Assembly (NCBI RefSeq): GCF_008831155.1
Contig: NZ_WBKB01000001.1
Location: 62,001 to 126,000 of the forward strand
Length of the DNA: 64,000 nucleotides
DNA from: Gulosibacter chungangensis
GTDB lineage: Bacteria > Actinomycetota > Actinomycetes > Actinomycetales > Microbacteriaceae
Direction: 5' to 3'
The notes under the pieces are model-generated. The model was not told where the DNA came from, did no database searches, and saw only the letters and a program-made list of their open reading frames with translations. The position numbers were made by a program, and so were the translations under genes. Positions 23,475-48,173 of this stretch are shown piece after piece (position 1 is the stretch's first letter; every line of letters begins with the position of its first letter).

Positions 23475-23610
23475 CCATTGCCGTTATCTCTAGTGCTTGC
23501 CGAAATACCGCCCCCATTTACAACTAATGGCAATGGCTCTGTTCGCAACTATTGCCATTAGCGCCAACCATGGCCTCTGTAACGACCCGGGGTGCAGATA
23601 ATTGCATTGG
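23475..23610. repeat. 62-bp palindromic repeats, family A, upstream cluster
   Basis: A complete unit at 23475-23536 begins CCATTGCC and ends GGCAATGG, 62 bp in all. After 12 nt a decayed unit follows at 23549-23610 (CTATTGCC ... TGCATTGG), also 62 bp. After another 12 nt CTATCGCC at 23623 may start a third, more decayed unit. The non-coding stretch 23272-23740 otherwise holds the accA hairpin, about 140 bp with no visible signal (23330-23470) and the paired boxes before the next gene. Confidence 0.85.
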
Positions 23611-23675
23611 GCCCTTGCAGCGCTATCGCCATTACGTATAAGAGTGCTGTTCTACCGGCAGGTAAACGTGCCAAA

Positions 23676-23713
23676 TTATCCACAGTGCGGCTCGGTTTTC
23701 GAATCATCCACAG
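23676..23713 (+). promoter_or_regulatory. Paired CCACAG boxes before AbiEi-like gene 1
   Basis: TTATCCACAG (23676-23685) and TCATCCACAG (23704-23713) are direct repeats 28 bp apart, ending 28 bp before the ATG at 23741. The first is a perfect E. coli-type DnaA box. The second AbiEi-like gene has the same pair at the same spacing. Confidence 0.6.
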
Positions 23714-23740
23714 TCGCGAAGCCTCTCTCGCCCTGCGACA

Positions 23741-24778
23741 ATGAGTGTCGGTTGTACTGGCCTCGTGAAAATTCTCTTTGCTCAAGAAGTGACGGCCAGG
23801 CCCACTCCAGTGCCACCATTGCACGTCACTGCCAAGAAAAATGGTTGGCTGCGAATCTACCGGGGCGCGTATCTAGACCCGCGGGGACAAGATCTCGACA
23901 AGGTGGCCAAGACATCTATGCATGCAGCCAAAGTGATCGCGTTGGCAGCATCAACTCCTGTGGCCGTCATCAGCGGGCTCAGTGCTGCAGTCATGCACGA
24001 TCTACCGCTCCTACAAAGACGAATTCCCGATCGAGTCCAGGTGTCTCGCAGTTCGAAGTCGGCACCAGGAAAATGGGTTACAACCCGAGAATCAAAGTTG
24101 AGTGACGAGGAAATCGCGGAAGTTTCGGGAGTTCGCTGCACGAGCATCCTTCGCACTATTCGCGATCTCGTCGATCAAGTTGAATTAGACGAACTCCTGG
24201 CGCTGGCCGACGCCGCGAAGGCACGCGGAGTCGATCTCACGCCGTTACAGAGCATCCGTCGTCACGGCCGATATTTTCGTTGGTTGGTCCAACACGCATC
24301 CGACCGATCCGAGAGCTTCGCAGAATCCAGAAGCCGTTTCTTGCTCCTACAAGCGGGCATGGAACTGCCGATCCTGCAGCCGTCACTGTATTCCGCGCAA
24401 GGTCTCTTCTTAGGACGGGGTGATTTTGCGACGAAAAGCGGCCTGGTCGGGGAGTTCGATGGCAAATTGAAGTACGAACAATTCCTCCGCCCTGGAGAAA
24501 CGCTCGCGGATGCGGTGATGAAGGAAAAGCGTCGGGAGAACTCGATCCGTGATGCGGGATTTGAGGTTTTTCGCTGGGACTGGCAGCTCCTGAATACGCC
24601 AAAGGTATTCATTGAGAGGTGGAAAAGCGCGCTTTCGCGTGCCGCATTGCTCCCACCTCCAAGTGGAAGTATTCGGATAGAACAGCTGCGTCCTCCGACC
24701 GTCACCCTCTGGGAGGACGTTTTCACCTGGACAAACCCGAGCGAGACTCCGGATCTAGCTGTCACAGCTCGTAGTTGA
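23741..24778 (+). CDS. AbiEi-like/DUF559 family protein 1
   Basis: The 345-residue protein is of a type common in actinobacteria: an N-terminal part resembling AbiEi antitoxins (GWLRIYRGAYLDP near residues 35-47), a middle helical region, and a C-terminal Vsr-like nuclease fold. In the last part E191/E195 (ESFAES), D228, E238-F-D-G-K and EKRRENSIRDAGFEVFRW are visible, so the putative metal-binding residues are retained. ATG at 23741 or GTG at 23765 could start it. It stands alone, with no toxin gene beside it, between two arrays of family A palindromes. Function is unknown; nuclease activity is inferred from the fold only. Confidence 0.65.
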   Translation: MSVGCTGLVKILFAQEVTARPTPVPPLHVTAKKNGWLRIYRGAYLDPRGQDLDKVAKTSMHAAKVIALAASTPVAVISGLSAAVMHDLPLLQRRIPDRVQVSRSSKSAPGKWVTTRESKLSDEEIAEVSGVRCTSILRTIRDLVDQVELDELLALADAAKARGVDLTPLQSIRRHGRYFRWLVQHASDRSESFAESRSRFLLLQAGMELPILQPSLYSAQGLFLGRGDFATKSGLVGEFDGKLKYEQFLRPGETLADAVMKEKRRENSIRDAGFEVFRWDWQLLNTPKVFIERWKSALSRAALLPPPSGSIRIEQLRPPTVTLWEDVFTWTNPSETPDLAVTARS

Positions 24779-24853
24779 ACGAACACTGCGTCATTGCGTC
24801 ATTGCGTCAACAGGCCAGTAAGAAGCAACAACGTGACCCTGTTCGTTCCGCAA

Positions 24854-25265
24854 CCATTGCCAATAACCGCAAGCCGGGTCGGTAGGCCAGCAATATTTGC
24901 AGATAGCGGCAATGGGTCGTGCCGCAGCCATTGCCAATAGCTGTAAGCCGGGTCGACACAACAGCAATGCATACGGACAACGGCAATGGTTCACCCAGCT
25001 ACAACGAAGCGCTCAGCCACAAAGGCTCGCGCCGTATCCATTGCCGCTAACCGCAAGTCCGGTCGCTGGGCCAGCAGTACTTACAGGTAACGGCAATGGG
25101 TCGCGCCGCAACCATTGCCGCTATCCGCACGCCGGGTGGGTATAACGGCAATGCTTACAGTTAACGGCAATGGATGGCGCAACAGCAGCAGGTAGCGCTG
25201 TAGCCATTGCCGCTAGCTGCACGCCAGGTCGGTACAACGGCAATACAAACAGCTAACGGCAATGG
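24854..25265. repeat. Five 62-bp palindromes, family A, downstream cluster
   Basis: Units lie at 24854-24915, 24928-24989, 25038-25099, 25112-25173 and 25204-25265. Each is exactly 62 bp and is bounded by CCATTGCC and GGCAATGG. Spacers are 12, 48, 12 and 30 nt, and the 12 nt before each unit resemble GTCGCGCCGCAA. Inside, GCTAACCGCAAGCCGGGTCG is a recurrent left half, and ACAGnTAAC precedes the right end. The array fills most of the 541-bp gap between the AbiEi-like gene and lpdA; nothing else was found in the gap. Confidence 0.92.
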
Positions 25266-25319
25266 GAAGCGCAACAGCGGCGTCGCGAGCGGGCGGCAGC
25301 GGCGACGGCGCGCGCGGCG

Positions 25320-26753
25320 CTACTCGATGCGGCGGTGCATGGCGCGGGCGGCGTCGACCATGGAGCCCGATAGCGAGGGGTAGACCGCCCAGGAGTCGGC
25401 GATTTCGTCGACGGTGAGGCGCTGTTCGATCGCAATCGAGAGCGCGAGCAGTAGCTCCGAGGCACGCGGCGCCACGATCACGCCGCCGATGATGGTGCCG
25501 AGGTTATTGCCTGCGATGAGTTTCACGAAACCATCGCGGAATCCCTGCATCTTCGCGCGGGGGTTCCCGGCGAGGTCGAGCTTGTACACGCGGCCGCTAC
25601 GGATCTGCTCCCGCACATCCTTTTCTTGCCAGCCCACGGTGGCAATCTCGGGGTACGTGAAGACGTTCGAAGCGACATTGCGGCGGCTAATCGGATGCAC
25701 CTGGTCACCCAGCGCGTGGAATACGGCGGTGCGCCCCTGGGTCGAGGCGACCGAGGCCAGCGGCAGGAAGTCCGAGCAGTCACCGGCCGCGTACACGTTC
25801 GGCAAAGAGGTGCGAGCGACCCGGTTGACCACGATGTGGCCGGAGTCGGTGGTCTTCACGCCAATCTTCTCCAGGCCCAGGTCAGCGGTGTTCGGAATCG
25901 ACCCGACCGCCATCAGGCAGTGAGTACCGCGCACTTCGGTGCCGTCCGAGAGGGTCGCGACAACCTCATCCCCCTCGCGCACGACCGATTCGGCGCGGGT
26001 CTGCGAGAGCACGTTCATGCCGTTACGCATGAACACCTCTTCGATCACATCGGCAGCGTCGGTGTCCTCGCCCGGCAGCACGCGATCACGCGAAGAAATC
26101 AGCGTCACCTCCACACCGAGTGCGTTATACGCCGAAGCAAACTCGGCACCGGTGACACCTGAACCGACCACGATGAGGTGCTGCGGAAGGCTCTCGAGAT
26201 CGTAGAGCTGCTTCCAGGTGAGGATGCGTTCCCCATCGGGCTTCGCCGAGTCAAGCTCCCGAGGGCTCGCCCCGACCGAGATCACGAGCGAGTCGTACTC
26301 CACCCGGTCAAACTCTTCGCCCGCGGTACCCGCGGTGATCGCAACCTCGCCGTCGGCCACGATGCGACCGTGGCCTTCGATGATGCGCACCCCAGCATCC
26401 TTCAGCTGACGACGAATATCGTCCGACTGGTTCTGCGCGAGGCGCAGCAGACGCTGGTTGAGCTTCCCAAGGTTGACGGCAATTTCCGGACGGCGCGGCT
26501 TTTCGTTGTCGTCGCGAACGAAAAACTGGATGCCGAGCTCGTCGGCATCTTGAATCGACACGGCAGCTTCGGCGGAGGCAATGAGCGCCTTCGAAGGGAC
26601 GACGTCGGTGAGCACCGCGGAACCGCCGATTCCGGTCCGCTCAATGAGGGTCACGTCAGCGCCAAGTTGAGCGCCGGCAATTGCGGATTCGTATCCGCCG
26701 GGTCCGCCACCGATCACGACGATGCGGTGTTTGTCCGAGTTTTGTGCAGCCAT
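25320..26753 (-). CDS. lpdA: NAD(P)H-quinone dehydrogenase of the LpdA type
   Basis: A flavoprotein of the pyridine nucleotide-disulfide reductase family, 477 residues. The FAD site VIGGGPGGYESAIAGAQLG is at the N-terminus, the NAD(P) site VVGSGVTGAEFASAY in the middle, and YAAGDCSDFLPLASVA follows. The redox-active cysteine pair is missing: the usual G-G-T-C-L-N-V-G-C-I-P-S-K is GGSAVLTDVVPSKAL here, so it cannot be a lipoamide dehydrogenase. This matches M. tuberculosis LpdA (Rv3303c), a quinone reductase, which also lies near deoD/punA. It is divergent from punA. Confidence 0.9.
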   Translation of the reverse strand: MAAQNSDKHRIVVIGGGPGGYESAIAGAQLGADVTLIERTGIGGSAVLTDVVPSKALIASAEAAVSIQDADELGIQFFVRDDNEKPRRPEIAVNLGKLNQRLLRLAQNQSDDIRRQLKDAGVRIIEGHGRIVADGEVAITAGTAGEEFDRVEYDSLVISVGASPRELDSAKPDGERILTWKQLYDLESLPQHLIVVGSGVTGAEFASAYNALGVEVTLISSRDRVLPGEDTDAADVIEEVFMRNGMNVLSQTRAESVVREGDEVVATLSDGTEVRGTHCLMAVGSIPNTADLGLEKIGVKTTDSGHIVVNRVARTSLPNVYAAGDCSDFLPLASVASTQGRTAVFHALGDQVHPISRRNVASNVFTYPEIATVGWQEKDVREQIRSGRVYKLDLAGNPRAKMQGFRDGFVKLIAGNNLGTIIGGVIVAPRASELLLALSIAIEQRLTVDEIADSWAVYPSLSGSMVDAARAMHRRIE

Positions 26754-26789
26754 GCCCTCAATCTTGCCACGCTCTGAGGAACCCTCCCC

Positions 26790-26795
26790 TACGCT
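26790..26795 (+). promoter_or_regulatory. -10 box of a leaderless punA transcript
   Basis: TACGCT is followed by 6 nt and the punA ATG at 26802. Confidence 0.5.
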
Positions 26796-26801
26796 GGCAA
26801 C

Positions 26802-27647
26802 ATGTCACAAACGCATCCGACTGATTCTGTGCATCCGCTCGACAATCCGGGCGTCGATCCGCGGGCCATCGCCGCTGAGGCCGCCGCGGTGATCGCCGAT
26901 AAGACCGGCGTGGCACAGCACGATATTGCGCTCACGCTCGGCTCCGGATGGGGACAGGCAGCGAGTTCGATTGGGGAGCTCATTGCGGAGTTTCCCGCTT
27001 CCGAGGTGCCGGGCTTTTCGAAGCCCGCGTTGGAAGGCCACACCGGCACGATCAAGTCGATCAAGCTTCCTTCGGGCCGGCACGCGCTCATCATCGGTGC
27101 CCGCACGCACTTCTATGAGGGCCACGGCGTACGTCGCGTCGTCCATTCGGTACGCACCGCTGCGGCTACCGGCGCAAAAATCATGGTGCTCACCAACGGC
27201 GCCGGTGGCCTCAACCCCGCTTGGCAGCCGGGCACCCCGGTGCTGATCCGCGATCACATCAACTTGACCGCAGCATCCCCCCTCGAGGGCGCGACCTTCG
27301 TTGATCTCACCGACCTGTACTCGCAGCGGCTGCGCGACGTGGTGCAGGGCCTTGAGCCGCTCGACGAGGGTGTGTATGTCCAGTTCCGCGGGCCGCACTA
27401 CGAGACTCCGGCGGAAGTGAAGATGGCCGGCATCATCGGCGGGGATATCGTTGGGATGTCGACCGCACTGGAGGCGATCGCAGCTCGCGAGGCGGGGATG
27501 GAGATCCTCGGGCTATCGCTCATCACGAACCCGGCGGCTGGCATCTCCCCGACTCCGCTCAATCACGAAGAAGTCATTGCTGCTGGCAAGGCTGCCGAGA
27601 CTCGGCTTGCGGCGCTGCTCGCTCGCATCGTCAAGGAGATCGCATGA
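26802..27647 (+). CDS. punA: Purine nucleoside phosphorylase
   Basis: The enzyme splits purine nucleosides with phosphate into free base and (deoxy)ribose 1-phosphate. At 281 residues it is a trimeric-type PNP: LGSGWGQ for phosphate binding near residue 47, TNGAGGLNP, YVQFRGPHYETPAEV and GMSTALEAIAARE, then ITNPAAGIS are all in order. Its stop overlaps the pmmB start by 4 bp. It belongs functionally with the add, deoA and cdd genes 5-8 kb downstream. Confidence 0.96.
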   Translation: MSQTHPTDSVHPLDNPGVDPRAIAAEAAAVIADKTGVAQHDIALTLGSGWGQAASSIGELIAEFPASEVPGFSKPALEGHTGTIKSIKLPSGRHALIIGARTHFYEGHGVRRVVHSVRTAAATGAKIMVLTNGAGGLNPAWQPGTPVLIRDHINLTAASPLEGATFVDLTDLYSQRLRDVVQGLEPLDEGVYVQFRGPHYETPAEVKMAGIIGGDIVGMSTALEAIAAREAGMEILGLSLITNPAAGISPTPLNHEEVIAAGKAAETRLAALLARIVKEIA

Positions 27648-29374
27648 CCCTGCCACTGATTCGAGAATCGCAGGTCGCTTTGCAGCACGCGGCCAAGCAT
27701 TGGCTTGAGCAGGATCCGGACCCGGCAACCCGCGCCGAGTTGGAATCTTTGCTCGCTCAGGCGGGCGACGTGAACGAGCCCCATCAGGAAATTCAGGATG
27801 CGGACGATTCGCCGCGTGCGCAGGCCTGGCGGGAGATTCGTGACCGATTCGGCACGCGGCTGCAGTTCGGTACGGCCGGTCTTCGCGGTCGGCAAGAAGC
27901 GGGCCCGAACCGGATGAACCGGGTTACGGTCGCGCAGGCAGCTCGCGGGCTTGCCGACTATTTGATCGCTCGTGAGGATGCGCCGAGCATCGTGATCGGC
28001 TACGACGCGCGAATCAATTCGGATATTTATGCACGGGACACCGCCGAACTCATGCAGGCGGCAGGGGTCAACGCCACTATCTTGCCGCGGCCGCTACCGA
28101 CCCCGGTGCTCGCCTTCGCGGTGCGCCATCTCGATGCTTCGGCGGGTGTGATGGTCACCGCTTCGCACAATCCCAAGTGGGATAACGGCTACAAGGTTTA
28201 CCTCGGCAAGCAGGATCAGGGTTCGCAAATCGTGCCTCCCGCGGACCGGGAGATCGCCACCGCCATCGAGGCTGTCGCGAAGCACCAGCGCGTGCCCGAT
28301 CTGCCTCGATCGCATGACTATCAGACCGCATCCGAGTCGCTCATCGACTCCTATGTCACCGAGACCGCCGCGCTCTTCAACGCGCCCGTGACGCCGCTCA
28401 AGGTCGCATACACTCCCCTCCACGGCGTGGGACGCGATACCTTCCACCGCGTCTTGGAAACCGCGGGCATCCCGCTCCCCCAGATCGTCCCCGAGCAGGC
28501 CGATCCGGACGGAACCTTCCCCACCGTTGAGTTCCCGAACCCCGAGGAACCGGGAGCGCTCGACCTCGCCTACGCAACCGGGGATGCATCCGACGCCGAC
28601 CTCATCCTCGCGCACGACCCCGACGCCGACCGGCTCGCGGTCGCGGTACCTGCCGAAGGCGGCTGGCGCCTGTTCGGTGGGAACGAGATCGGGCGGATGC
28701 TCGGCTGGCGAGCAGCGAAGGCTGCGGCAGCTGCGGGGCAGCTCGAGGGCACACTCGCGACCTCGCTCGTGTCATCCCCCGCGCTCTCGAAGGTCGCCGC
28801 GCACTACGGGCTCGGCTACGCGGAAACCCAGACCGGCTTCAAGTGGATCTCCCGCGCCGAGGGCATCATTTACGGCTACGAAGAGGCGCTCGGCTACCTC
28901 GTGAACCCCGAGACCGTGCGCGACAAGGATGGCGTCTCGGCGGCGCTCGCGATTCTTGAACTCGCGATGCTTGAGGCCGCTGAAGGCCGTACGCTTGCCG
29001 ATCTCGACAATGAATTCACGGTGCAGTTTGGGGCGTTCGAGTCGCGCCAGGTCGCGCTGCGCTACGACTCGGTGCAGGTGCTGCCGAAGGTGATGGATGC
29101 GCTGCGCGCCGAGTTCCCGGCCACGGTCGGCGAGGTCGCAGTGTCCGCCGTCTACGACTTCGAGACCGCCCCGCAACCGGCGAACATCCTTCGCGTTGAA
29201 CTCGCCGACGAGACGCGCATCATGATCCGTCCATCCGGTACCGAACCGAAGATCAAGGTGTACATCGATGCGAATAGCACCGAGGGCACGGTTTCGGAGC
29301 GCAAGGTTTCGGCGGCAAGTCGGGCGGATGCGGCGGCTACCGCGATGCGCGCCCTCCTCACCCCGACGGAGTGA
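27644..29374 (+). CDS. pmmB: Phosphohexomutase/phosphopentomutase family protein
   Basis: An alpha-D-phosphohexomutase of 576 residues. The catalytic serine is in VTASHNPKWDNGYKVY, the metal loop is AHDPDADRLAVAV, the sugar-binding loop is GYEEALGYLV, and the phosphate-binding loop is RPSGTEPKIKVY near the C-terminus. In actinobacteria it follows punA, so besides mannose or glucose phosphates it may convert the ribose 1-phosphate that PunA makes to ribose 5-phosphate (inference from context). It overlaps its neighbours by ATGA upstream and GTGA downstream, so all three genes are one translational unit. Confidence 0.92.
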   Translation: MTLPLIRESQVALQHAAKHWLEQDPDPATRAELESLLAQAGDVNEPHQEIQDADDSPRAQAWREIRDRFGTRLQFGTAGLRGRQEAGPNRMNRVTVAQAARGLADYLIAREDAPSIVIGYDARINSDIYARDTAELMQAAGVNATILPRPLPTPVLAFAVRHLDASAGVMVTASHNPKWDNGYKVYLGKQDQGSQIVPPADREIATAIEAVAKHQRVPDLPRSHDYQTASESLIDSYVTETAALFNAPVTPLKVAYTPLHGVGRDTFHRVLETAGIPLPQIVPEQADPDGTFPTVEFPNPEEPGALDLAYATGDASDADLILAHDPDADRLAVAVPAEGGWRLFGGNEIGRMLGWRAAKAAAAAGQLEGTLATSLVSSPALSKVAAHYGLGYAETQTGFKWISRAEGIIYGYEEALGYLVNPETVRDKDGVSAALAILELAMLEAAEGRTLADLDNEFTVQFGAFESRQVALRYDSVQVLPKVMDALRAEFPATVGEVAVSAVYDFETAPQPANILRVELADETRIMIRPSGTEPKIKVYIDANSTEGTVSERKVSAASRADAAATAMRALLTPTE

Positions 29375-30327
29375 CACGCCAGTTGACTTCGATCCCATAC
29401 CTCGACGCCGCGACGGTGTCCGCGCTGATGAGCCCAGCGGACGCCGTTGCGGCTCTGCAGGATGCGCTTCGAGAGGGTTTCGATCCCGCTACCGATCACC
29501 AGCGCATCGCGGATCCACTCGCGAACGGCGAGTTCCTCATTATGCCCTCGGAGACAGCGAGCGCTGCGGGACTCAAGGTACTCACGGTCACCCCGGATAA
29601 CCCGGCCCGCGGCCTCGAGCGGATTCAGGGGTTGTTCGTCTTATTCGACGCCGAAACGCTGACGCCGACCCACCTGATCGACGGCGCTGAACTCACGGCG
29701 CTTCGCACCCCGGCGGTGTCATTCGCGGCGACTGCCGACCGGCTACTCGACGCCACCGATCCGCTTCGGGTCGTGGTCTATGGCGCCGGTCCCCAGGCGG
29801 TCGGACACGTAAACACCCTTCGGTCAATCACCACGCACCGGCGCGAAATCGACTCGGTCATTGCGGTCGTGCGATCTCCGGAAGGTGTGGCCGATCCTGG
29901 CCCGTTCCAAAGCATCCTGTGTAGCGGGAGTGCCGAGGCACTCGAAGCGACCGCCGCAGCCAATCTCATCATCTGCACCACCACTGCGCGAAGCCCGCTA
30001 TTTGATGGGGCACTCGTGCGGGACGATGCGGTCGTCATCGCGGTCGGCTCGCACGTGCCCGACGCCCGCGAACTCGACGGCGGCCTGTTGGGACGCGCGA
30101 ATGTCGTCGTCGAGTCGATTGATGTCGCGCTTCGCGAGTGCGGGGATGTCGTAATGGCGATCGCCGAGAATGCGCTCGAGGCTCGTTCGCTCATCCCCAT
30201 GCGGGAGGTCGTGACCGGTCAAGTCAAGCTCGCCGCGGATAAGCCGCTGGTGTTTAAGAGCGCCGGGATGCCCTGGCAAGATCTTGTGATCGCCGAAGCC
30301 GCGGCGCGAGCGTTTGAGCGCAGTTAG
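29371..30327 (+). CDS. Ornithine cyclodeaminase/mu-crystallin family protein
   Basis: A 318-residue NAD(P)-dependent enzyme with the Rossmann motif VVVYGAGPQAVGHVNTL and a C-terminal KSAGMPWQDLVIAEAAARA segment typical of the family, which includes ornithine cyclodeaminase, ketimine reductases and alanine dehydrogenases. The GTG start lies in a GTGA overlap with pmmB. Substrate cannot be fixed from sequence, and its coupling to nucleoside genes is unexplained. Confidence 0.85.
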   Translation: MTRQLTSIPYLDAATVSALMSPADAVAALQDALREGFDPATDHQRIADPLANGEFLIMPSETASAAGLKVLTVTPDNPARGLERIQGLFVLFDAETLTPTHLIDGAELTALRTPAVSFAATADRLLDATDPLRVVVYGAGPQAVGHVNTLRSITTHRREIDSVIAVVRSPEGVADPGPFQSILCSGSAEALEATAAANLIICTTTARSPLFDGALVRDDAVVIAVGSHVPDARELDGGLLGRANVVVESIDVALRECGDVVMAIAENALEARSLIPMREVVTGQVKLAADKPLVFKSAGMPWQDLVIAEAAARAFERS

Positions 30328-30450
30328 CCGGTCACTGAGTAGGAGTGAAGCGACACGGGCAGCCGGTCACTGCGTAGGAGTGAAGCGACATATCGAAGTG
30401 ACCAATACGCAAGCCGCTTCGATACGCTCCGCTACTCAGCGATCAGTGAC
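30326..30450. repeat. Imperfect repeat block, family C
   Basis: Two 30-bp direct copies at 30326-30355 and 30361-30390 share AGCCGGTCACTG, then GTAGGAGTGAAGCGACA. A partly complementary stretch with TTCGATACGCTCCGCTACTC follows at 30418-30437, so the block can fold back on itself. Similar CACTGAGTAG/TTCGATACGCT elements are frequent between genes in Microbacteriaceae genomes. It starts at the last codon of the preceding gene. Confidence 0.7.
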
Positions 30451-30452
30451 GC

Positions 30453-31166: not shown

Positions 31167-31226
31167 CGTTCGGAAGTGTAGCGGTGGAGCGCCGCGTTCA
31201 AGAGAAATGATCCAGCGGCTTTCGAC

Positions 31227-39260: not shown

Positions 39261-39278
39261 TGCGGGATGTCCGGGTGC

Positions 39279-40434: not shown

Positions 40435-40440
40435 ATTCTA
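40435..40440 (-). promoter_or_regulatory. -10 box of the nucleoside importer operon
   Basis: TAGAAT on the minus strand fits the actinobacterial -10 consensus and would give a leader of about 45 nt before the lipoprotein GTG. No good -35 box is visible. Confidence 0.4.
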
Positions 40441-40482
40441 ACGCCCAATCAGCACTTTTCGTTGTCCTTTTAGCTCGCGACG

Positions 40483-41604
40483 CTACAAAACTTCCGGATG
40501 CTCGGAAGATTTCAGGAGGTTAACAATGTCTTTGACTTGTTGTGCGTTCGAGCGGTCGGTAATCAACAGTGCATCCTCGGTGTCCACCACGATGATGTTC
40601 TTAATCCCCGCCACCGCGATTACCCGGTCGGTTTCCGAAATCACAATCCCCGTAGCATTTGTCGAGACCACCCGATCCGCTTCACCGATCACCTGCACCT
40701 CGTGCGCACAAGCCGCGGCAGCCTGGTGAACCCGAGTGATTGCCGCAAAATCGCCCACGTCATCCCACCCGAAAAAGCCTGGAATCACGGCGAGCGCACC
40801 CTTTTTGGCTGCGGGCTCGGCAACCGTGTAGTCGATCGCGATCTTCTCCAGGGTCGGCCAGATTTCTGCCACCACGGAATCCCGATTCTCAGTGTCCCAA
40901 GCATCCGCAATTGCGTTAATTCCGACGGCGAGTTCGGGGGCGTTCTCGGCCAGTTCATCGAGCAGGCGGGAAGCTTTGGCAATAAACATGCCGGCATTCC
41001 AGAGGTATTCACCCGAGGCGACATAGCGACTAGCAGTGGCCGAATTCGGTTTCTCGACGAACTCATCCACCTGTCGGGCGGAAGGGGCGCCGTGAATTTC
41101 GAATGGCTCGCCCGCGCGAATATAGCCAAAGGCGGTGGATGCGGCCATCGGCTGGATGCCGATGGTCACGATATGCCCTTCGTCGGCAGCGCGCACCGCT
41201 TCCCGGACCGCGCGCCGAAATCGGCCACCCGCGCTAATGAGATGGTCGGCTGCGAAAGAGCCGACGACTGCGCCTGGGTGACGCCGTTCCAAAATGGCGG
41301 CGGCGAGGCCGATCGCGACGGTGGAATCGCGCCCTTCGGATTCGAGCACGATGTTTTCGTCTTGCAACTCGGGCAATTGCTCGCGAACCTCTGCGGCGTG
41401 CGACTGCCCGGTGACCACCATGATGCGGTCCTCACCCGTCAGCGGCACCAGTCGTTCCCAAGTCGACCGCAGCAGCGTGGAACCGGTCCCGGCGATATCG
41501 CGGAGGAATTTCGGCCGGTCAGCGCGACTCAACGGCCAGAGCCTCGAACCGACACCTCCCGCGGGAATCACGGCATAAAAGTGGTCGGGATTAGAAGCGA
41601 GCAT
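40483..41604 (-). CDS. manC: Mannose-1-phosphate guanylyltransferase
   Basis: The enzyme makes GDP-mannose from mannose 1-phosphate and GTP. The nucleotide-binding motif VIPAGGVGSRLWPLSRADRPKF begins near residue 13 (landmark GGVGSRLWPLSR), and VEKPNSATA and NAGMFIAKAS are the sugar-binding elements. At 373 residues there is no fused isomerase domain. ATG at 41604 is chosen because TACGCT lies 7 nt before it; a TTG two codons upstream lies inside that spacing. It is divergent from a mannosyltransferase that would use its product. Confidence 0.93.
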   Translation of the reverse strand: MLASNPDHFYAVIPAGGVGSRLWPLSRADRPKFLRDIAGTGSTLLRSTWERLVPLTGEDRIMVVTGQSHAAEVREQLPELQDENIVLESEGRDSTVAIGLAAAILERRHPGAVVGSFAADHLISAGGRFRRAVREAVRAADEGHIVTIGIQPMAASTAFGYIRAGEPFEIHGAPSARQVDEFVEKPNSATASRYVASGEYLWNAGMFIAKASRLLDELAENAPELAVGINAIADAWDTENRDSVVAEIWPTLEKIAIDYTVAEPAAKKGALAVIPGFFGWDDVGDFAAITRVHQAAAACAHEVQVIGEADRVVSTNATGIVISETDRVIAVAGIKNIIVVDTEDALLITDRSNAQQVKDIVNLLKSSEHPEVL

Positions 41605-41611
41605 GCGCAAG

Positions 41612-41617
41612 AGCGTA
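41612..41617 (-). promoter_or_regulatory. -10 box of a leaderless manC transcript
   Basis: TACGCT on the minus strand is followed by CTTGCGC and the ATG at 41604, a 7-nt spacing. Confidence 0.5.
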
Positions 41618-41703
41618 ACCCGTCAGTGGTGTAAATCCGGGGATTCCGCGACATTTGCGCGCGAAGTCCGAGATCTGTTTACTCCGCAGTAACCATTCCC
41701 CCT

Positions 41704-41709
41704 TAGCCT
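41704..41709 (+). promoter_or_regulatory. -10 box of a leaderless mannosyltransferase transcript
   Basis: TAGCCT is followed by 8 nt and the ATG at 41718. Confidence 0.45.
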
Positions 41710-41717
41710 CTGGTGTT

Positions 41718-42884
41718 ATGCGCGTTGCCGTTGTGACTGAAAGTTTCCTCCCGACTGTCAACGGCGTCACCAATTCGGTGAAGAAGGTGCTCGACCATCT
41801 CGCGCTGCGCGGGCACGAGGCAATCGTGATTTGTCCCGCTGCCGGAGCACCCGCCGACTATGCCGGGTTTCCAGTGCACGAGGTCGCTACCTTTAACTAT
41901 CGGCAATTCCCGGTGGGGCTGCCGACCCTGCAGGTGCAGCGCATCCTCGACGATTTCAAGCCGGACGTGCTGCATGCGGCCTCTCCTGCCTTTCTCGGCG
42001 GCCACGCGATTGCCGCGGCGCGGCGACGGGGTATTCCCACGGTCGCAATCTTTCAAACCGATATCGCCGGCTATACCGAAAAAAATGGCCTCGGGTTCAT
42101 GCGCGAAGCGACCTGGTCGCTCCTGCGCCATGTGCACAATCAGGCCGACCGCACCCTCGCACCGTCCAGCGCATCCATTCGCGATTTGACGCGACAGCGG
42201 ATCGAACGGGTCGCGCGCTGGGGCCGCGGAGTCGACCTCGATACCTACCACCCCGATAACCGCGACACGAGCGATGCGCGAGCCCTGCGCGCGAGTATCG
42301 CCGGGCCGGATGAGGTCGTCGTCGGCTATGTGGGGCGACTCGCGCCCGAAAAGCAGGTGGAGAAGCTCGCGGAATTGCGCGGTATCCCGAACCTGCAGCT
42401 CGCGATCGTCGGTGACGGCCCCTCGCAGGATGCGCTGCGGCAGCAGTTGCGGGGGCTTCCGGTCCACTTCCTCGGCCGGAAGGGTGGACGCGATCTCGCG
42501 ATGGCCTACGCGGCGTTTGATGTCTTCGTCCATACCGGCACCGAGGAAACCTTTGGCCAAACCCTGCAAGAGGCCCACGCATCCGGCACCCCGGTGGTGG
42601 CCCCGCTCGCGGGAGGCCCGATCGATCTGGTGACCCACGGCGGGGATGGATTCCTCTTCGACCCGTCCCAGTCTCGTGGCGCCGATTCGCTGCGCCGATA
42701 CGTGGCTCGGCTCGCTGCCGACGCCGGTTTGCGAGCCCGGATGGGTGAGGCCGGTCGTCGTCGTGTCCTTGGTCGATCTTGGGCCGGAATTTGCGATGAA
42801 TTGCTCGGGCATTACCAAGCTGTGATGGACCAAAAACGAGGTGTTCGCGAGCTCGCGATGACGGGCTCCATCGAGGCGCTCTAG
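41718..42884 (+). CDS. GT4-family glycosyltransferase, probably GDP-mannose-dependent (MgtA-like)
   Basis: A 388-residue GT-B glycosyltransferase. MRVAVVTESFLPTVNGVTNSV at the start is close to mycobacterial and corynebacterial MgtA, which mannosylates a glucuronosyl glycolipid. The GT4 E-x7-E region is seen as TGTEETFGQTLQEAHASG, and GYVGRLAPEKQVEKL is the donor-domain start. The neighbour manC supplies the donor. The acceptor in this organism (glycolipid or lipomannan) is inferred. ATG at 41718 fits both family and promoter. Confidence 0.85.
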   Translation: MRVAVVTESFLPTVNGVTNSVKKVLDHLALRGHEAIVICPAAGAPADYAGFPVHEVATFNYRQFPVGLPTLQVQRILDDFKPDVLHAASPAFLGGHAIAAARRRGIPTVAIFQTDIAGYTEKNGLGFMREATWSLLRHVHNQADRTLAPSSASIRDLTRQRIERVARWGRGVDLDTYHPDNRDTSDARALRASIAGPDEVVVGYVGRLAPEKQVEKLAELRGIPNLQLAIVGDGPSQDALRQQLRGLPVHFLGRKGGRDLAMAYAAFDVFVHTGTEETFGQTLQEAHASGTPVVAPLAGGPIDLVTHGGDGFLFDPSQSRGADSLRRYVARLAADAGLRARMGEAGRRRVLGRSWAGICDELLGHYQAVMDQKRGVRELAMTGSIEAL

Positions 42885-42899
42885 TAAGGCTTGCCTTAC
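42884..42899. promoter_or_regulatory. Palindrome resembling a DtxR/IdeR iron box
   Basis: GTAAGGC-TT-GCCTTAC is a perfect 7+2+7 palindrome immediately after the mannosyltransferase stop and about 135 bp before sdhC. Its AGGC..GCCT core resembles iron-dependent repressor sites. A -10-like TACAGT lies between it and sdhC at 42943-42948. Confidence 0.35.
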
Positions 42900-43032
42900 C
42901 ACAACCTGCCTCGAGCCGCCTGAATTCGCGGTAGAGTTGGCATACAGTTTCGGGCGTATTCGTGTATGCGCAAGTCTCCGCCCCGAGCGACACCACTGCC
43001 GCCGGGTCACATCAACACAGAAGGGTAGTTCC

Positions 43033-43455
43033 GTGTCAGCTGTTCAGACGGGCACCCCGACTTCACCTCAACCCGGGAAGAAGAAGTCCCTCGGTGGGAC
43101 GCTTTACCGCGGCAATGAGGGTATGTGGTCGTGGGTACTTCACCGCATCACTGGTGTAGCAATTTTCTTCTTCCTCCTCGTGCACGTGCTCGACAGTGCA
43201 CTGCTGCTGGTCAGTCCCGAGGTTTACAACGCCGTAATCGGCGCGTACAAGACTCCGATCATGGGGATCGGTGAGCTCGGCCTCGTCGGCGCGATCGTGT
43301 ACCACGCCTTCAACGGTCTGCGCATCATCGTGGTCGACTTTGTGCCCGGCGGTACGCGCATCCAGAAGCTGCTGTTCTGGATCGTAATCGGCATCTGGGT
43401 AGTGGTGATGGCGGGCTTCGCCTTCATCCACCTGCAGAACGTATTCGGTCACTAG
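43033..43455 (+). CDS. sdhC: Succinate dehydrogenase cytochrome b556 subunit
   Basis: A 140-residue membrane anchor with three helices. GMWSWVLHRITGVAIFFFLLVHVLD holds the Ser/Arg quinone-site residues and the heme-ligand His region (landmarks HRITG and LLVHVLD). It anchors SdhAB and passes electrons to menaquinone. GTG at 43033 is preferred since AGAAGGG lies 7 nt upstream. First gene of sdhCDAB. Confidence 0.93.
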   Translation: MSAVQTGTPTSPQPGKKKSLGGTLYRGNEGMWSWVLHRITGVAIFFFLLVHVLDSALLLVSPEVYNAVIGAYKTPIMGIGELGLVGAIVYHAFNGLRIIVVDFVPGGTRIQKLLFWIVIGIWVVVMAGFAFIHLQNVFGH

Positions 43456-43475
43456 GAAAGTAGGGAGATCGAAAA

Positions 43476-43916
43476 ATGACTATTGAAGCTGTCGAATATC
43501 CGCGTACCCCGCTTTCCGAACGCAAGAAGAGCGCCCAGAACTGGGAGCGCGCCGGTTGGGCGTTCATGCGCATCTCGGGTGTGCTGCTCATCTTCCTCGT
43601 GTTCGTACACCTGTACTCGAACCTGATCGCCGGTGACGGTGTGCACCAGATCGACTACCAGTTCGTGGTCGCCGAGAAGTTCGCGGTGCCGTTCTGGCTG
43701 ATCTGGGATGCGCTGCTCCTCGTGCTCGCGCTCATCCACGGCACGAACGGTATGCGCACCATCGTCAACGACTACGTCTACAAGCCGGGCCCCCGCAAGG
43801 CACTCGTCGCGACCCTTTGGATCGCCTGCATCGTCGAGATTGTCCTCGGCATGATCGTGCTGATCGTCTTCGCCGTGGAGCCTTGCTTCCAGGGCGGCGC
43901 CTCGATCTGCTCGTAG
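43476..43916 (+). CDS. sdhD: Succinate dehydrogenase membrane anchor subunit
   Basis: A 146-residue protein with three helices; AFMRISGVLLIFLVFVHLYS and LALIHGTNGMRTIVNDY hold the heme and quinone contacts. It starts 20 bp after sdhC with GGGAG about 10 nt upstream. Confidence 0.92.
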   Translation: MTIEAVEYPRTPLSERKKSAQNWERAGWAFMRISGVLLIFLVFVHLYSNLIAGDGVHQIDYQFVVAEKFAVPFWLIWDALLLVLALIHGTNGMRTIVNDYVYKPGPRKALVATLWIACIVEIVLGMIVLIVFAVEPCFQGGASICS

Positions 43917-43953
43917 TTCCGGTTCAACGCGTTTAGGAAGAGAATTTAGACAT

Positions 43954-45783
43954 ATGGCTGCAGAACAGCTCAAGGACACCGTCAAGGTCATCGACGGCGT
44001 GAAGATTCACTACCACCGCAACGAAGTGGTCATCGTTGGTGCGGGTGGTGCGGGGATGCGCGCCGCAATTGAAGCGGCTGAAACTGCCGGTACCGGCGCC
44101 GTCGTCGACGTCGTGACCAAGCTTTACCCGACTCGTTCGCACACCGGAGCTGCCCAGGGTGGCATGGCCGCGGCACTCGCGAACGTGGAGGAAGACAACT
44201 GGGAGTGGCACACCTACGACACCGTCAAGGGTGGCGACTACCTCGTCGACCAGGACTCCGCGGAGATCCTCGCGAAGGAAGCAATTGAAGCGGTACTCGA
44301 CCTCGAGAACATGGGTCTGCCCTTCAACCGCACGCCGGAAGGCAAGATCGACCAGCGCCGCTTCGGTGGTCACACTCGTGACCACGGTAAGGCTCCGGTT
44401 CGTCGTGCCTGCTACGCCGCTGACCGTACCGGTCACATGATTCTGCAGACGCTGTACCAAAACTGCGTCAAGCACAACATCCGCTTCTTCAACGAGTACT
44501 ACGCGCTCGACGTGGCTTTCACCGAAGTTGACGGTGTGAAGACCCCCTCGGCTGTTGTGGCGTACGAGCTCAAGACCGGTGACCTGCACGTCTTCCAGGG
44601 CAAGTCCATCGTCTTCGCGACCGGTGGTTTCGGCAAGGTCTTCAAGACCACGTCGAACGCCCACACCCTCACCGGTGACGGCGTCGGCATCATCTGGCGC
44701 AACGGCCTGCCGCTCGAGGACATGGAGTTCTTCCAGTTCCACCCGACCGGCCTCGCCGGCCTCGGCATCCTGCTTACCGAGGGTGCCCGTGGTGAAGGTG
44801 CAATCCTGCGTAATGACTCGGGTGAGCGCTTCATGGAACGCTACGCGCCAACCATTAAGGACCTCGCCCCGCGTGACATCGTGGCGCGCTCGATGGTGCA
44901 GGAAGTGCTCGAAGGCCGCGGCGCCGGCCCGAACAAGGACTACGTCTACCTCGACTGCACCCACCTGGGTGCCGAGGTGCTCGAGACGAAGCTGCCGGAC
45001 ATCACCGAGTTCGCCCGCACCTACCTCGGCGTTGACCCGGTCACCGAACCGGTACCGGTATACCCGACCGCGCACTACGCCATGGGCGGCATCCCCACCA
45101 ATAACGACGCGCAGGTCATCTCAGATGAAGACGACACCGTCGTTCCCGGCCTCTTCGCCGCTGGTGAGTGCGCTTGCGTCTCGGTGCACGGCTCGAACCG
45201 TCTGGGCACCAACTCGCTGCTGGACATCAACGTCTTCGGTAAGCGCGCCGGCCGCAACGCCGTCAAGTACGCACAAACCGCCGACTACGCACCGCTTCCC
45301 GATGACGCCGACGAGTTCGTGCGCACCCTGGTGAAGAACATGCGCGACTCGCACGGCACCGAATCGGTCGCCGACCTGCGCCGCGAACTGCAGGAAACCA
45401 TGGACACGAACGTCCAGGTGTTCCGCACCGAAGAGACCCTCACCGAAGCGACCAAGGTCATCCACTCGCTGCGTGAGCGCTACCGCGACATTCACGTCAA
45501 CGACAAGGGCCTTCGCTACAACACCGAGCTCCTCGAAGCGATTGAGCTGGGCTTCCTGCTCGACCTCGCCGAGGTTGTCACCTACACGGCGCTGAACCGT
45601 CAGGAGTCGCGCGGTGGTCACATGCGTGACGACTTCCCCAAGCGTGACGACGAGAACTGGATGCACCACACCATGGCATACCTGAGCGGCGACCGTCGCT
45701 CGGCTGACCCCGCCGACCACATCACCCTCGGCAAGAAGCCCGTGCGTATGACGCACTACGTGCCGCAGGAACGAAAGTACTAA
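43954..45783 (+). CDS. sdhA: Succinate dehydrogenase flavoprotein subunit
   Basis: The catalytic subunit oxidising succinate to fumarate in the TCA cycle, 609 residues. VVIVGAGGAGMRAAIEAAE binds FAD, SHTGAAQGGMAAAL contains the His region for covalent FAD, and RRFGGHTRDHGKAPVRRACYA plus the HPTGL segment and the catalytic Arg region of RGEGAILRND are present. It is the third gene of the operon and has the best codon bias of the region, as expected for an abundant enzyme. Confidence 0.97.
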   Translation: MAAEQLKDTVKVIDGVKIHYHRNEVVIVGAGGAGMRAAIEAAETAGTGAVVDVVTKLYPTRSHTGAAQGGMAAALANVEEDNWEWHTYDTVKGGDYLVDQDSAEILAKEAIEAVLDLENMGLPFNRTPEGKIDQRRFGGHTRDHGKAPVRRACYAADRTGHMILQTLYQNCVKHNIRFFNEYYALDVAFTEVDGVKTPSAVVAYELKTGDLHVFQGKSIVFATGGFGKVFKTTSNAHTLTGDGVGIIWRNGLPLEDMEFFQFHPTGLAGLGILLTEGARGEGAILRNDSGERFMERYAPTIKDLAPRDIVARSMVQEVLEGRGAGPNKDYVYLDCTHLGAEVLETKLPDITEFARTYLGVDPVTEPVPVYPTAHYAMGGIPTNNDAQVISDEDDTVVPGLFAAGECACVSVHGSNRLGTNSLLDINVFGKRAGRNAVKYAQTADYAPLPDDADEFVRTLVKNMRDSHGTESVADLRRELQETMDTNVQVFRTEETLTEATKVIHSLRERYRDIHVNDKGLRYNTELLEAIELGFLLDLAEVVTYTALNRQESRGGHMRDDFPKRDDENWMHHTMAYLSGDRRSADPADHITLGKKPVRMTHYVPQERKY

Positions 45784-45798
45784 GAAGGGAGAACCGTC

Positions 45799-46557
45799 AT
45801 GACTACTGCTACCGCAAATGTTGACGAGCGTAAGACTGAAGAGCCGGAGAAGCCCTTCAAGGTTCAAATCAAGCTGCGTCGCTACGACCCCGAGACCCGT
45901 CCGGATGCGTACTGGGAGACCTTCGAGGTCGACATGTACTCGACCGACCGCATCCTCGACGCCCTCCACTCGATTAAGTGGGACCAGGACTCGACCCTCG
46001 CGTTCCGCCGCTCCTGCGCGCACGGTATTTGCGGTTCGGATGCCATGCGCATCAACGGCCGCAACCGCCTGGCTTGCAAGACCCTCGTGAAGGACCTCGA
46101 CATCACGAAGCCCGTGACCGTGGAAGCGATCAAGGGCCTTCCGCTCGAGCGCGACCTCATCGTCGACATGGACCCCTTCTTCGAGGCTTACAAGGAGATC
46201 CACCCCTTCCTGGTGGCTTCCGACAAGCCCGAGAAGGAGCGCATCCAGTCGATCGCGGACCGCGACATCTTCGACGACACGACCAAGTGCATCCTCTGCG
46301 CAGCATGCACCACCTCGTGCCCTGTGTTCTGGACCGACGGCCAGTACTTCGGCCCGGCAGCGATCGTGAACGCACACCGCTTCATCTTCGACTCGCGTGA
46401 CGAAGACGCCAAGACCCGCCTCGACATCCTCAACGACAAGGAAGGCGTGTGGCGCTGCCGCACCACCTTCAACTGCACCGAGGCATGCCCCCGCGGCATC
46501 GAGGTCACCAAGGCAATCGCCGAAGTGAAGCAGGCCATTCTGCGAGGCAAGCGCTAA
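45799..46557 (+). CDS. sdhB: Succinate dehydrogenase iron-sulfur subunit
   Basis: A 252-residue protein with a 2Fe-2S site (SCAHGICGSDAMRINGRNRLAC; landmarks CAHGICGSD, with Asp as in the E. coli protein at one ligand position), then 4Fe-4S and 3Fe-4S sites in CILCAACTTSCP and FNCTEACPRGI. It carries electrons from SdhA to the quinone site. It starts 15 bp after sdhA and is followed by a strong terminator. Confidence 0.97.
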   Translation: MTTATANVDERKTEEPEKPFKVQIKLRRYDPETRPDAYWETFEVDMYSTDRILDALHSIKWDQDSTLAFRRSCAHGICGSDAMRINGRNRLACKTLVKDLDITKPVTVEAIKGLPLERDLIVDMDPFFEAYKEIHPFLVASDKPEKERIQSIADRDIFDDTTKCILCAACTTSCPVFWTDGQYFGPAAIVNAHRFIFDSRDEDAKTRLDILNDKEGVWRCRTTFNCTEACPRGIEVTKAIAEVKQAILRGKR

Positions 46558-46600
46558 TTGCTTGCTGAGGTGCGCTAACTTCTCGCACCAACCGCAAAAG

Positions 46601-46631
46601 GGGGCTCCGACACTTTTCGTGTCGGAGCCCC
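46601..46631 (+). terminator. Terminator of sdhCDAB
   Basis: GGGGCTCCGACAC and GTGTCGGAGCCCC form a perfect 13-bp stem with a TTTTC loop, 43 bp after sdhB; only CTCTGCGTTT follows instead of a long T run. Confidence 0.85.
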
Positions 46632-46716
46632 TCTGCGTTTCCCGCGGCGTTTCGACCGCGAGCTCCCTCCGCCGCGTTCCCACCGCCGCCGCGCGTTCCC
46701 ACTCCCACTCTCAACT

Positions 46717-46914
46717 AACTCGTCACTCGACGTCGCATCGGGGGCTCGCAACAGCATCCATTGACGAACGAACGAGACACCCCTAGCTAACTCGTCACTC
46801 GACGTCGATCCCGGGCCCCGGAACTGCATCTATCGACGAGTTGCGCAGCGGCGCTCACGCGACTCGTCGATGGATGTTGTTGGGGCACGGGTGGGGAGCA
46901 TCCGGTGACGAGTC
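46717..46914. repeat. Three 54-bp palindromes, family B, cluster 3
   Basis: Units lie at 46717-46770, 46789-46842 and 46861-46914, each 54 bp with 18-nt spacers. The first two have the left arm AACTCGTCACTCGACGTCG; the third is in the opposite orientation (left arm GACTCGTCGATGGATG). The cluster ends 70 bp after the stop of AbiEi-like gene 2. The 427-bp gap 46558-46984 holds only this and the sdh terminator. Confidence 0.9.
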
Positions 46915-46984
46915 TGCGACGAGCCTCTGGGCGGCTCGCTCGGTGTCGGCCAGAACTCGCACTCGCGTTCGCGGGGCGCGCCGT

Positions 46985-47926
46985 TCAAATAACCGCGCTT
47001 CGCGCAAGTTGCACGCGAATTGAACGAACCAGTTCATGCCACCGCTTGCCGTTGAGGTCCGTCTTCACAACATGCATCAGCCGCATACCAGCTTCCTGAA
47101 ATTGTCGATCGCGCAGAACGTCCGCGTCGATCGTTGCCTGATCAGTGAAGTGGAAATCACCGTCGTAATTGAGGTACAGGCCTGCTTCTGGATATCCGAG
47201 ATCTGGGCGATAAAGGGTGCCATCGTCAAGAAAGACTTCCGGCTGAACCTCTGGCTCTGGCAGCCCAGCATCGACAAATTGCAGTCGCGCAACCGACTCC
47301 ATGGGTGATTCCACACGAGGACGAGCGCGCACCACAGCTTGACGCAATGTACGGATCCCTCGCATCCGTTCGAACTTCGCGAGTATCGCGGGGAGATCCG
47401 CCGGCACCAAGAGCGGACGCTCCGCGAAATTTAGACTGGGGTATTTATTGAAATCCGTGAGCAGCGCATCCAACATCACCGTGATGTCAAACGCATTGAG
47501 GTGCATCGCCGACGTCAATACCGCCAGCACGGGTGACACAACTGGGACGCTTCCGAGCCTTGAAGCTCGAAAGAAATCGTCTCGGATAGCGCGGCTTTTC
47601 ACACCGCCTATTCGAACTCTCGAGACGGATGCGCGGGTCAATACTTCGATGTCGGCAGAGCGAGTGTTCGCCAGGTTGGGGATTCGCAAGCCCCACAACT
47701 CTGCGGCAGCCAGACCCGAGATCGCCTGTCCATCGCTCAGCCGTTGGCCAAGAGCGATAGCACGCTCGCGTCTCGAAATAGGTTCGGTGTGTGAGCGAAC
47801 ACCCACGAACGGCGCATGGAGTTTCGGATTGCGTAGTTTTCCCGGTGTCACGCCCGCTGCGACAGCCGCGGACACGCTGAAGGCGCCACTCTGGAATTGC
47901 GGTGGCAGGCTCAATTCATCACGCAT
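46985..47926 (-). CDS. AbiEi-like/DUF559 family protein 2
   Basis: A 313-residue protein of the same broad class as the gene at 23741 but only distantly similar. The N-terminal half is AbiEi-like (SGLAAAELWGLRIP near residues 70-83), and the C-terminal third is DUF559/Vsr-like: E206-S-P-M-E210-S, D242 in RPDLGYP, then YLNYDGDFHF and LRDRQFQEAGMRLMHV. The usual Glu of the E-x-D-G motif is Asn253, so catalysis may be impaired. The ATG at 47926 has a -10-like TAGCGT 7 nt upstream. It lies between family B arrays; no toxin partner is adjacent. Confidence 0.65.
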   Translation of the reverse strand: MRDELSLPPQFQSGAFSVSAAVAAGVTPGKLRNPKLHAPFVGVRSHTEPISRRERAIALGQRLSDGQAISGLAAAELWGLRIPNLANTRSADIEVLTRASVSRVRIGGVKSRAIRDDFFRASRLGSVPVVSPVLAVLTSAMHLNAFDITVMLDALLTDFNKYPSLNFAERPLLVPADLPAILAKFERMRGIRTLRQAVVRARPRVESPMESVARLQFVDAGLPEPEVQPEVFLDDGTLYRPDLGYPEAGLYLNYDGDFHFTDQATIDADVLRDRQFQEAGMRLMHVVKTDLNGKRWHELVRSIRVQLARSAVI

Positions 47927-47933
47927 AGCTCGA

Positions 47934-47939
47934 ACGCTA
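47934..47939 (-). promoter_or_regulatory. -10 box of a leaderless AbiEi-like gene 2 transcript
   Basis: TAGCGT on the minus strand is followed by TCGAGCT and the ATG at 47926. Confidence 0.4.
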
Positions 47940-47977
47940 CGTCTTGTCGTAATTCCGGGTTTTTCTGGGGCGGTGAA

Positions 47978-48015
47978 CTGTGGAGAACACCTTCAGCTCG
48001 ATGATCTGTGGAGAA
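47978..48015 (-). promoter_or_regulatory. Paired CCACAG boxes before AbiEi-like gene 2
   Basis: On the minus strand TTCTCCACAG occurs at 48015-48006 and again at 47987-47978. The two copies are identical over 10 bp and 28 bp apart, the same spacing as in front of AbiEi-like gene 1. Confidence 0.6.
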
Positions 48016-48047
48016 CTCGCGCGCCTCGCGCCCTTCGCGCACCCACA

Positions 48048-48173
48048 GACTCGTCGATGGATGCTGTTTTGTGGCGGTGTGACGACATCCAATGACGAGT
48101 TGGTTGAGGGTGTTGCATTCGTTCGTCGATGGATGCTGTTCCGAGGTCCGGAATCGACGTCGAGTGACGAGTT
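48048..48173. repeat. Two 54-bp palindromes, family B, cluster 4
   Basis: Units at 48048-48101 and 48120-48173, each 54 bp, are separated by 18 nt. Both are in the opposite orientation to clusters 1 and 2 (left arm TCGTCGATGGATGCTG, right arm AATGACGAGTT or AGTGACGAGTT). The 447-bp gap 47927-48373 holds these, the paired boxes, about 150 bp without visible signals and the operator before the next gene. Confidence 0.9.

Follow-up and report, generated by a model that had tools for sequence, protein, structure and literature searches.

Dispersed REP-like palindromes bracketing AbiEi/Vsr-nuclease-like genes in Gulosibacter chungangensis and its relatives

A 64,000-nt stretch of the 3.24-Mb genome of Gulosibacter chungangensis (genome G000, C1:62001-126000; here the window) carries two genes of one protein superfamily. 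Gene 1 (protein P0001) and gene 2 (P0002) are each bracketed by palindromes of their own family, A and B, and further copies are dispersed in the genome. With slightly better than even confidence, we read these loci as units resembling the repetitive extragenic palindromes (REPs) and their REP-associated tyrosine transposases (RAYTs), built around an unrelated AbiEi/Vsr-nuclease-like enzyme, with the protein moving the repeats. The reading draws on the bracketing of homologous genes, the co-divergence of palindrome and protein, and the dispersal and narrow host range of the palindrome families.

Two genes and their palindrome families

Gene 1 (23741-24778, forward strand) is an intact open reading frame (ORF) of 345 aa. 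Two A palindromes lie on its 5′ side (23471-23538 and 23545-23612; period 74) and five on its 3′ side (24850-24917, 24924-24991, 25034-25101, 25108-25175 and 25200-25267; spacings 74, 110, 74 and 92), all on the forward strand. The A unit of about 66-68 bp has the core CCATTGCC...GGCAATGG. Seven units bracket the gene, and the first downstream CCATTGCC core follows the stop codon at 75 bp. Two TCCACAG boxes, 28 bp apart, are located 5′ of the gene (23680-23713, forward strand; CCACAG at 23680 and 23708), the first of them inside TTATCCACAG.

Gene 2 (46985-47926, reverse strand) is an intact ORF of 313 aa. The B unit measures 54 bp and consists of AACTCGTCACTnGATGCTG, about 14 variable bases and AACAGCATCCATCGACGAGT, with a period of 72. 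Five units bracket the gene: two on the 5′ side (48048-48101 and 48121-48173, reverse strand) and three on the 3′ side (46717-46769 and 46789-46842 on the forward strand, 46861-46914 on the reverse strand), the first of these at a distance of 70 bp. Two TTCTCCACAG boxes stand 5′ of the gene (47978-48011, reverse strand; CTGTGG at 47978 and 48006), with the same 28-bp spacing as at gene 1. Both layouts had been described in an earlier note on this DNA, and all their parts are present as placed. The two repeat families are unrelated, as that note had also claimed: the A and B consensus sequences share no likeness. Within the window, A and B units gave nhmmer E-values of 2.4e-18 to 4.9e-9 on the best strand, with profiles seeded with the same copies. 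A scan of the window against Rfam at the gathering threshold detected no known RNA family.

Four B units of the window without a nuclease gene had been overlooked. One lies at 6213-6266 (forward strand), with a partial second unit near 6287. The other three form an array at 11933-12130 (units 11933-11986, 12005-12058 and 12077-12130; forward strand, period 72).

Genes 1 and 2 are single-copy in the genome. Three further AbiEi/DUF559-like genes, likewise overlooked before, lie at C4:19625, C18:1747 and C15:183499, and all five family genes found in this genome have a repeat common to both flanks. The C4 gene has a palindrome of about 60 nt with a TACCACC arm on both flanks. Since the longest reading of the ORF includes the upstream copy, the true start must lie downstream of that copy. 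The C18 gene stands between two copies of a palindrome with 98% likeness over 52 nt, the C15 gene between copies of a 25-nt repeat with 96% likeness.

Bracketing and co-divergence across the protein family

To test bracketing at homologous loci, 700 bp from either side of each gene were compared with each other and the best local match was scored. Five of 61 loci were cut by contig edges and left out (L064, L074, L087, L089 and L098). The threshold of 20.1 was the 99th percentile of the scores from 336 mismatched pairs, among which a single pair reached 65.5. Matching flanks were present at 36 of the 56 homologous loci and at none of 91 control genes (Fisher p 3e-20 against the 91), which were ORFs of 250-460 aa from 20 stretches of 20 kb, one per genome in 20 genomes. 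Congeneric orthologue pairs among the 36 passing loci are not independent. The earlier note had raised the concern that other DUF559 genes might lack flanking palindromes; this comparison speaks to it, with 36 loci flanked and 20 that did not pass. Gene-2-like loci matched in 20/28 cases and gene-1-like loci in 14/25. The shared flank segments are palindromic, with at least 12 of 14 outer bases paired in 26/36 (shuffled mean 9.6). Gene 1 scored 19.5 and was counted as a miss; its A repeats are real but diverged.

Among control ORFs of the same size range in G. chungangensis and the relative G003, 2/238 passed the flank test. The first is an IS630-like transposase gene of G003 (L223:3410-4501), an unplanned but fair positive control. 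The second, from G. chungangensis (L252:12253-13461, score 30.5), encodes a permease-like protein.

A phylum-wide set of 30 loci was reduced to 28 by leaving out the gene of G. chungangensis itself (L275) and one at a contig edge (L299); L276 and L277 repeat L061 and L058. Flanks matched at 6/7 loci from the same family or order, at 3/7 from the class and at 3/14 beyond it; these matches were not screened for palindromic form, and some look like plain direct repeats. Because the matching fraction falls with distance, the present data place the arrangement chiefly in Micrococcales. A profile search with a three-sequence alignment found one locus, in Gulosibacter sp. 10, that encodes a 49% relative of P0002. 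In two congeners (L045 and L046), the relatives of gene 2 contain internal stop codons; the flanks score 18.5 at L045, below the threshold, and 36.0 at L046, a match.

Palindrome and protein similarity were compared at 37 loci (666 pairs), the 36 passing loci and gene 1. The four palindrome pairs with the greatest likeness coincide exactly with the four closest protein pairs (61-74% identity), each of them congeneric. Over the whole set the correlation is weak (Spearman 0.14, Mantel p 0.0015), since relatedness has already been lost in almost every pair. The co-divergence supports the suggestion, made in the earlier note, that each protein may act on its own palindrome, a relation that we infer from sequence comparison.

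Neither P0001 nor P0002 matched a Pfam model. P0001 matched the padloc AbiEi models (best E 2.8e-12) and P0002 did not; one of ten gene-1-like proteins matches PF13338 at 0.0024. Among 13 gene-2-like relatives, seven match PF18741 (REase_MTES_1575) and five PF04480 (DUF559), with E up to 0.01. The gene-1-like and gene-2-like families align over 238 columns with 99.8% probability. Asp228, Glu238 and Asp240 of P0001 are invariant in 10/10 aligned gene-1-like proteins. In the alignment of 13 gene-2-like proteins the Asp is invariant, and the Glu position holds Glu in nine, Asp in two and Asn in two. We take these acidic residues to be catalytic from the PD-(D/E)XK pattern. The namesake of PF18741 is described as a Vsr-fold restriction endonuclease (PMC3710099). 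Judged by sequence relationship, the superfamily of P0001 and P0002 would join AbiEi-like sequence to a C-terminal part resembling a Vsr-fold (PD-(D/E)XK) nuclease. The earlier assignment to a Vsr-fold DUF559 type stands by way of the relatives that match PF04480 or PF18741, but not by a Pfam match of P0001 or P0002 themselves. By sequence, the PDB holds no relative of P0002, and the gene-1 profile found only four entries at E 0.38-0.92, of no use. In tblastn, P0002 had no match in plasmids (E 1e-8) and P0001 none in phages (E 1e-5).

The direct neighbours of genes 1 and 2 encode a biotin carboxylase, a pyridine nucleotide-disulphide oxidoreductase, an iron-sulfur protein and a GFO/IDH oxidoreductase. 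These four bear on the idea of a conflict system, in which the palindromes mark self DNA or act in addiction to, or protection from, a nuclease directed at unmarked DNA. Such a system is improbable. Relatives do match padloc AbiEi models and a nuclease domain named from conflict systems, but the adjoining genes are metabolic; none of the four encodes an AbiEii-like nucleotidyltransferase toxin, a methylase or another defence protein, and there is no direct evidence of protection.

The upstream boxes recur in the family. TCCACA, on either strand, occurs within 250 bp upstream in 40/56 loci and downstream in 4/56; for TTNTCCACA the numbers are 22/56 upstream and 1/56 downstream (250 bp). Forward CCACAG within 300 bp upstream was found in 24/56 loci and in 5/184 control ORFs, for which only the longest reading was taken as the start. 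The reverse box is located at -46 to -50 in ten loci and the forward box at -56 to -58 in nine, five of which have an inverted pair (74 or 75 and 56 or 57). Proteins with unrelated palindromes have the box in common; it is therefore an element separate from the palindromes, presumably read by a conserved reader. The TCCACA-type promoter box (TTNTCCACAG) resembles a DnaA box, a likeness that we treat as a lead only.

Dispersal of the palindromes and their positions in two species

Covariance models built from nine B and seven A copies of the window were run over 60 genomes, that of G. chungangensis and 59 relatives. At most 96 or 85 candidates were scored per genome, and the A and B counts are lower bounds. 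B yielded at least 75 matches with both strands counted, that is at least 47 places in 21 clusters, in G. chungangensis, and at least 40 matches at no fewer than 30 places in G003. G006 and G039 gave one weak match each, and 56/60 genomes none. A was found in G. chungangensis (at least 50 matches, at least 27 places) and G003 (at least 37 matches, at least 24 places) and in none of the 58 others. Relatives of the proteins are far more widespread, P0002 in 47/60 genomes and P0001 in 39/60. By far the closest orthologues are encoded in G003 (60% for P0002 and 55% for P0001; next best 49% and 42%). With A and B nearly limited to G. chungangensis and G003, the palindrome family tracks the close orthologue, not the whole protein family. 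The earlier note had asked for palindromes in genomes lacking the proteins; across the 60 genomes, A and B are clearly present only in the two that hold the closest orthologues.

Two more families were searched from palindromes beside homologues elsewhere. The palindrome p81 from G035 occupies at least 15 places there (15 of 33 candidates scored) and p83 from G013 likewise at least 15 (15 of 55 candidates scored), or at least 38 with a longer query. Each was confined to its genome, with no match in the 59 others at E up to 0.001. Dispersal was therefore seen in all four families searched, and arrays in A and B. By eye, the dispersed p81 and p83 units (31 copies) have sharp ends and unrelated neighbours.

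The B copies are concentrated in both genomes. Contig C18 makes up 7% of the bases of G. chungangensis but holds 10 of the 21 clusters (p about 3e-7, computed as 10/20). In G003, 14 of 15 detected B clusters lie within C1 2.33-3.34 Mb, the region of about 1 Mb in which the gene is located as well. This concentration may reflect local spread or survival limited to one region.

The window is collinear, in inverted orientation, with G003 3.07-3.12 Mb, where genes 1 and 2 are found at orthologous places, repeats included. Positions of the dispersed copies differ. A repeat-free gap of 32 bp between ORFs of the window (17351-17382) corresponds to a G003 gap with a B array of period 71 that starts no more than about 20 bp from the stop codon of a Maf-like gene. 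G003 has a degenerate equivalent of the array at 11.9 kb in the window. In 400 kb elsewhere, the flanks of seven distinct dispersed loci could be aligned between the genomes, and a profile search (E up to 1e-3) showed no locus at which the two share a family; five of ten G003 arrays without alignable flanks on both sides and a weak B match at 2509093 were left out. Where G. chungangensis has the B array at C1:576572-576769, G003 has 24 bp, a clean empty site, and the B array at 730291 corresponds to an A element in G003.

These data bear on a classical transposon whose terminal inverted repeats are the palindromes and whose internal-deletion derivatives, as miniature inverted-repeat transposable elements (MITEs), are the dispersed copies. 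The flanks of gene 2 do form 127-nt inverted arms, 78% complementary, and the IS630-like transposase gene passed the same flank test. A single copy of each gene next to dozens of repeats, orthologous places of the genes in G003 and the lack of target duplications by eye at the 31 p81 and p83 copies speak against it, as do the arrays of fixed period (71-74), which are not typical of MITEs. This explanation has a low probability, ranked just above that of the conflict system.

B arrays border larger insertions. A block of 5.7 kb in the window (6.2-11.9 kb), absent from G003, has B units on both borders; by eye, its ORFs encode an AraC-like regulator, an amine-oxidase-like protein and a permease. 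G003 has an insertion of its own, 2.8 kb, inside the B array of gene 2, and G. chungangensis has 13 kb extra beside gene 2 (48.2-61.3 kb). B arrays may be recombination hot spots. The borders of the 5.7-kb and 2.8-kb insertions also fit a chance association, in which nuclease genes were inserted into older repeat arrays, as insertion sequences are into REPs, with no functional tie. This is the least probable of the alternatives: 58 genomes besides G. chungangensis and G003 have no A and, in only two, a single weak B match; palindrome likeness is greatest among the closest proteins; and different genes sit in different families.

Proposed mechanism, known systems and neighbouring repeats

A number of findings weigh against proteins that spread their own repeats. 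The co-divergent pairs are congeneric, so common ancestry of the locus is enough to account for them, with no binding required. Palindromes of pairs at 54-59% protein identity score 11.5-13.0, values that unrelated pairs also reach (up to 13.5), and only the covariance model recognised them; below 54% identity, palindrome likeness no longer stands out. Twenty of the 56 loci, gene 1 among them, fall below the flank-test threshold. The control genes may have shorter intergenic flanks, coding and intergenic flank types being unmatched, and the flank signal fades outside Micrococcales. The Asn at the presumed catalytic Glu position belongs to P0002 and its G003 orthologue, though G. chungangensis has more B than A. 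No target duplication was evident by eye at the 31 inspected p81 and p83 copies. Compensatory changes in the B arms were not in excess over 47 copies (34 cells, 41.7 in shuffles). With two species compared, gain and loss are indistinguishable at the differing positions, and mobility as such was not observed.

Some of these points fit a regulator without nuclease function: an AbiEi-like repressor or nucleoid-binding protein for which the palindromes are binding sites, spread by recombination, replication slippage or another enzyme and kept because they are bound. A precedent exists in AbiEi, reported to bind 23-bp inverted repeats (PMC7319586). An 11-bp motif recurs 19 bp apart in 4/36 flank segments, as for pairs of bound subunits. 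The conserved arms, variable loop and absent covariation of B look like protein-binding half-sites, and P0002 lacks the presumed catalytic residue. The retention of the acidic residues in 10/10 aligned gene-1-like proteins argues for a nuclease instead. Repeats stand on both sides of the genes, so the promoter is not the sole site; dispersed copies have unrelated neighbours, and one array starts right after a stop codon. A regulator alone is unlikely, although it has a better claim than any other alternative considered here.

In a system where the protein moves the repeats, the AbiEi-like part would recognise its palindrome as paired inverted half-sites, and the Vsr-like part would nick or cut at the palindrome or at the target. 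Repair or replication would then copy palindromes into new sites and lengthen arrays. The TCCACA-type promoter boxes may couple expression to replication or place it under a host regulator. The arms of B vary without compensation, and a hairpin substrate is therefore unsupported for B; base pairing of p81 exceeds all 1000 shuffles and that of p83 does not. A wider proposal seems to us evenly balanced: that a Vsr-like family with an AbiEi-type DNA-binding part, independently of HUH transposases, drives REP-like palindrome populations across Actinomycetes, each protein spreading its own palindrome, both drifting together to new specificities, and DnaA-box-like elements timing expression.

The likeness to REP/RAYT systems, proposed in the earlier note, holds for the organisation. 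In Gammaproteobacteria, the RAYT gene lies between inverted palindromes, copies of which are scattered over its genome and form arrays known as bacterial interspersed mosaic elements, and repeat and protein co-evolve (PMC2817692; PMC3116915); REPINs are dispersed extragenic doublets (PMC3116915). Here, too, one palindrome brackets both sides of the gene (36/56 loci by the flank test), with dispersed copies, arrays and co-divergence of repeat and protein; the extragenic position of dispersed repeats was judged at inspected sites. The enzyme is unrelated. RAYTs are tyrosine transposases related to IS200/IS605, and their REPs are headed by GT(A/G)G, according to the same sources (PMC2817692; PMC3116915). 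The present proteins are AbiEi/Vsr-like and the hosts Actinomycetes, and by eye neither the A nor the B consensus has a GT(A/G)G head at its ends. A RAYT/Y1 transposase as hidden mobiliser was rejected: PF01797 is absent from 4/4 genomes (G. chungangensis, G003, G013 and G035), with 5/14 control genomes positive, E. coli included.

Other known systems share single features. CGTC-tagged REPs are dispersed palindromes as well, and CGTC also occurs in the B arms; they are reported from five phyla, with Actinobacteria not among them in the text available, and 'apparently lack a dedicated transposase' (PMC3733652). The AbiE type IV toxin-antitoxin system is approached by the match of P0001 to padloc AbiEi models and by the binding of inverted repeats by AbiEi (PMC7319586). 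It differs from the present loci, where an AbiEii-like direct neighbour is missing, the C-terminal part is nuclease-like and repeats are found downstream and dispersed. The DUF559 and REase_MTES_1575 families (PF04480 and PF18741) are linked by the matches of 5/13 and 7/13 gene-2-like proteins; in the available text of PMC3710099, the MTES_1575 domain is fused in a large HEPN protein and a link to palindromes is not mentioned. Insertion sequences with terminal inverted repeats are unlike these loci in gene copy number and target duplication, with a single gene copy in G. chungangensis and no duplications seen by eye.

The RepRanger survey names at least three Actinomycetota, and neither 'transposase' nor 'endonuclease' occurs in its text as available (PMC12306157). 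Literature searches that left out most subscription journals and bioRxiv showed, among the papers listed, no earlier link of DUF559, AbiEi or Vsr genes to REP-like palindromes, which is weak evidence of absence. RAYT transposases are the enzymes known to accompany dispersed palindromes in bacteria, with CGTC REP families standing without an apparent dedicated enzyme (PMC3733652). The novelty is in the unrelated enzyme; the organisation alone is of the REPtron kind. If the proposal is true, partnerships of a gene with a palindrome arose at least twice, many 'DUF559/AbiEi-domain' proteins that have no assigned role gain a function, and many natural pairs of protein and DNA site become available to study changes of recognition.

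Further repeats and genes were seen next to B arrays. In G003, B arrays stand on both sides of a lipoprotein-like ORF of 239 aa (C1:3330303-3331712), in an arrangement similar to that of gene 2. At C1:730050-730650 of G. chungangensis, a second repeat type (GTTTCGATACGCT..CGCTACTCAACG) flanks a B array on both sides; the G003 site has a similar stretch close by. Other palindrome families (GATTGGTCGCATACCGGGG... and GTGACCAATTTGCGGAGG...) adjoin B arrays in G003 at C1:3108250-3109280 and 3112150-3112650; they may belong to additional nuclease genes of that genome.

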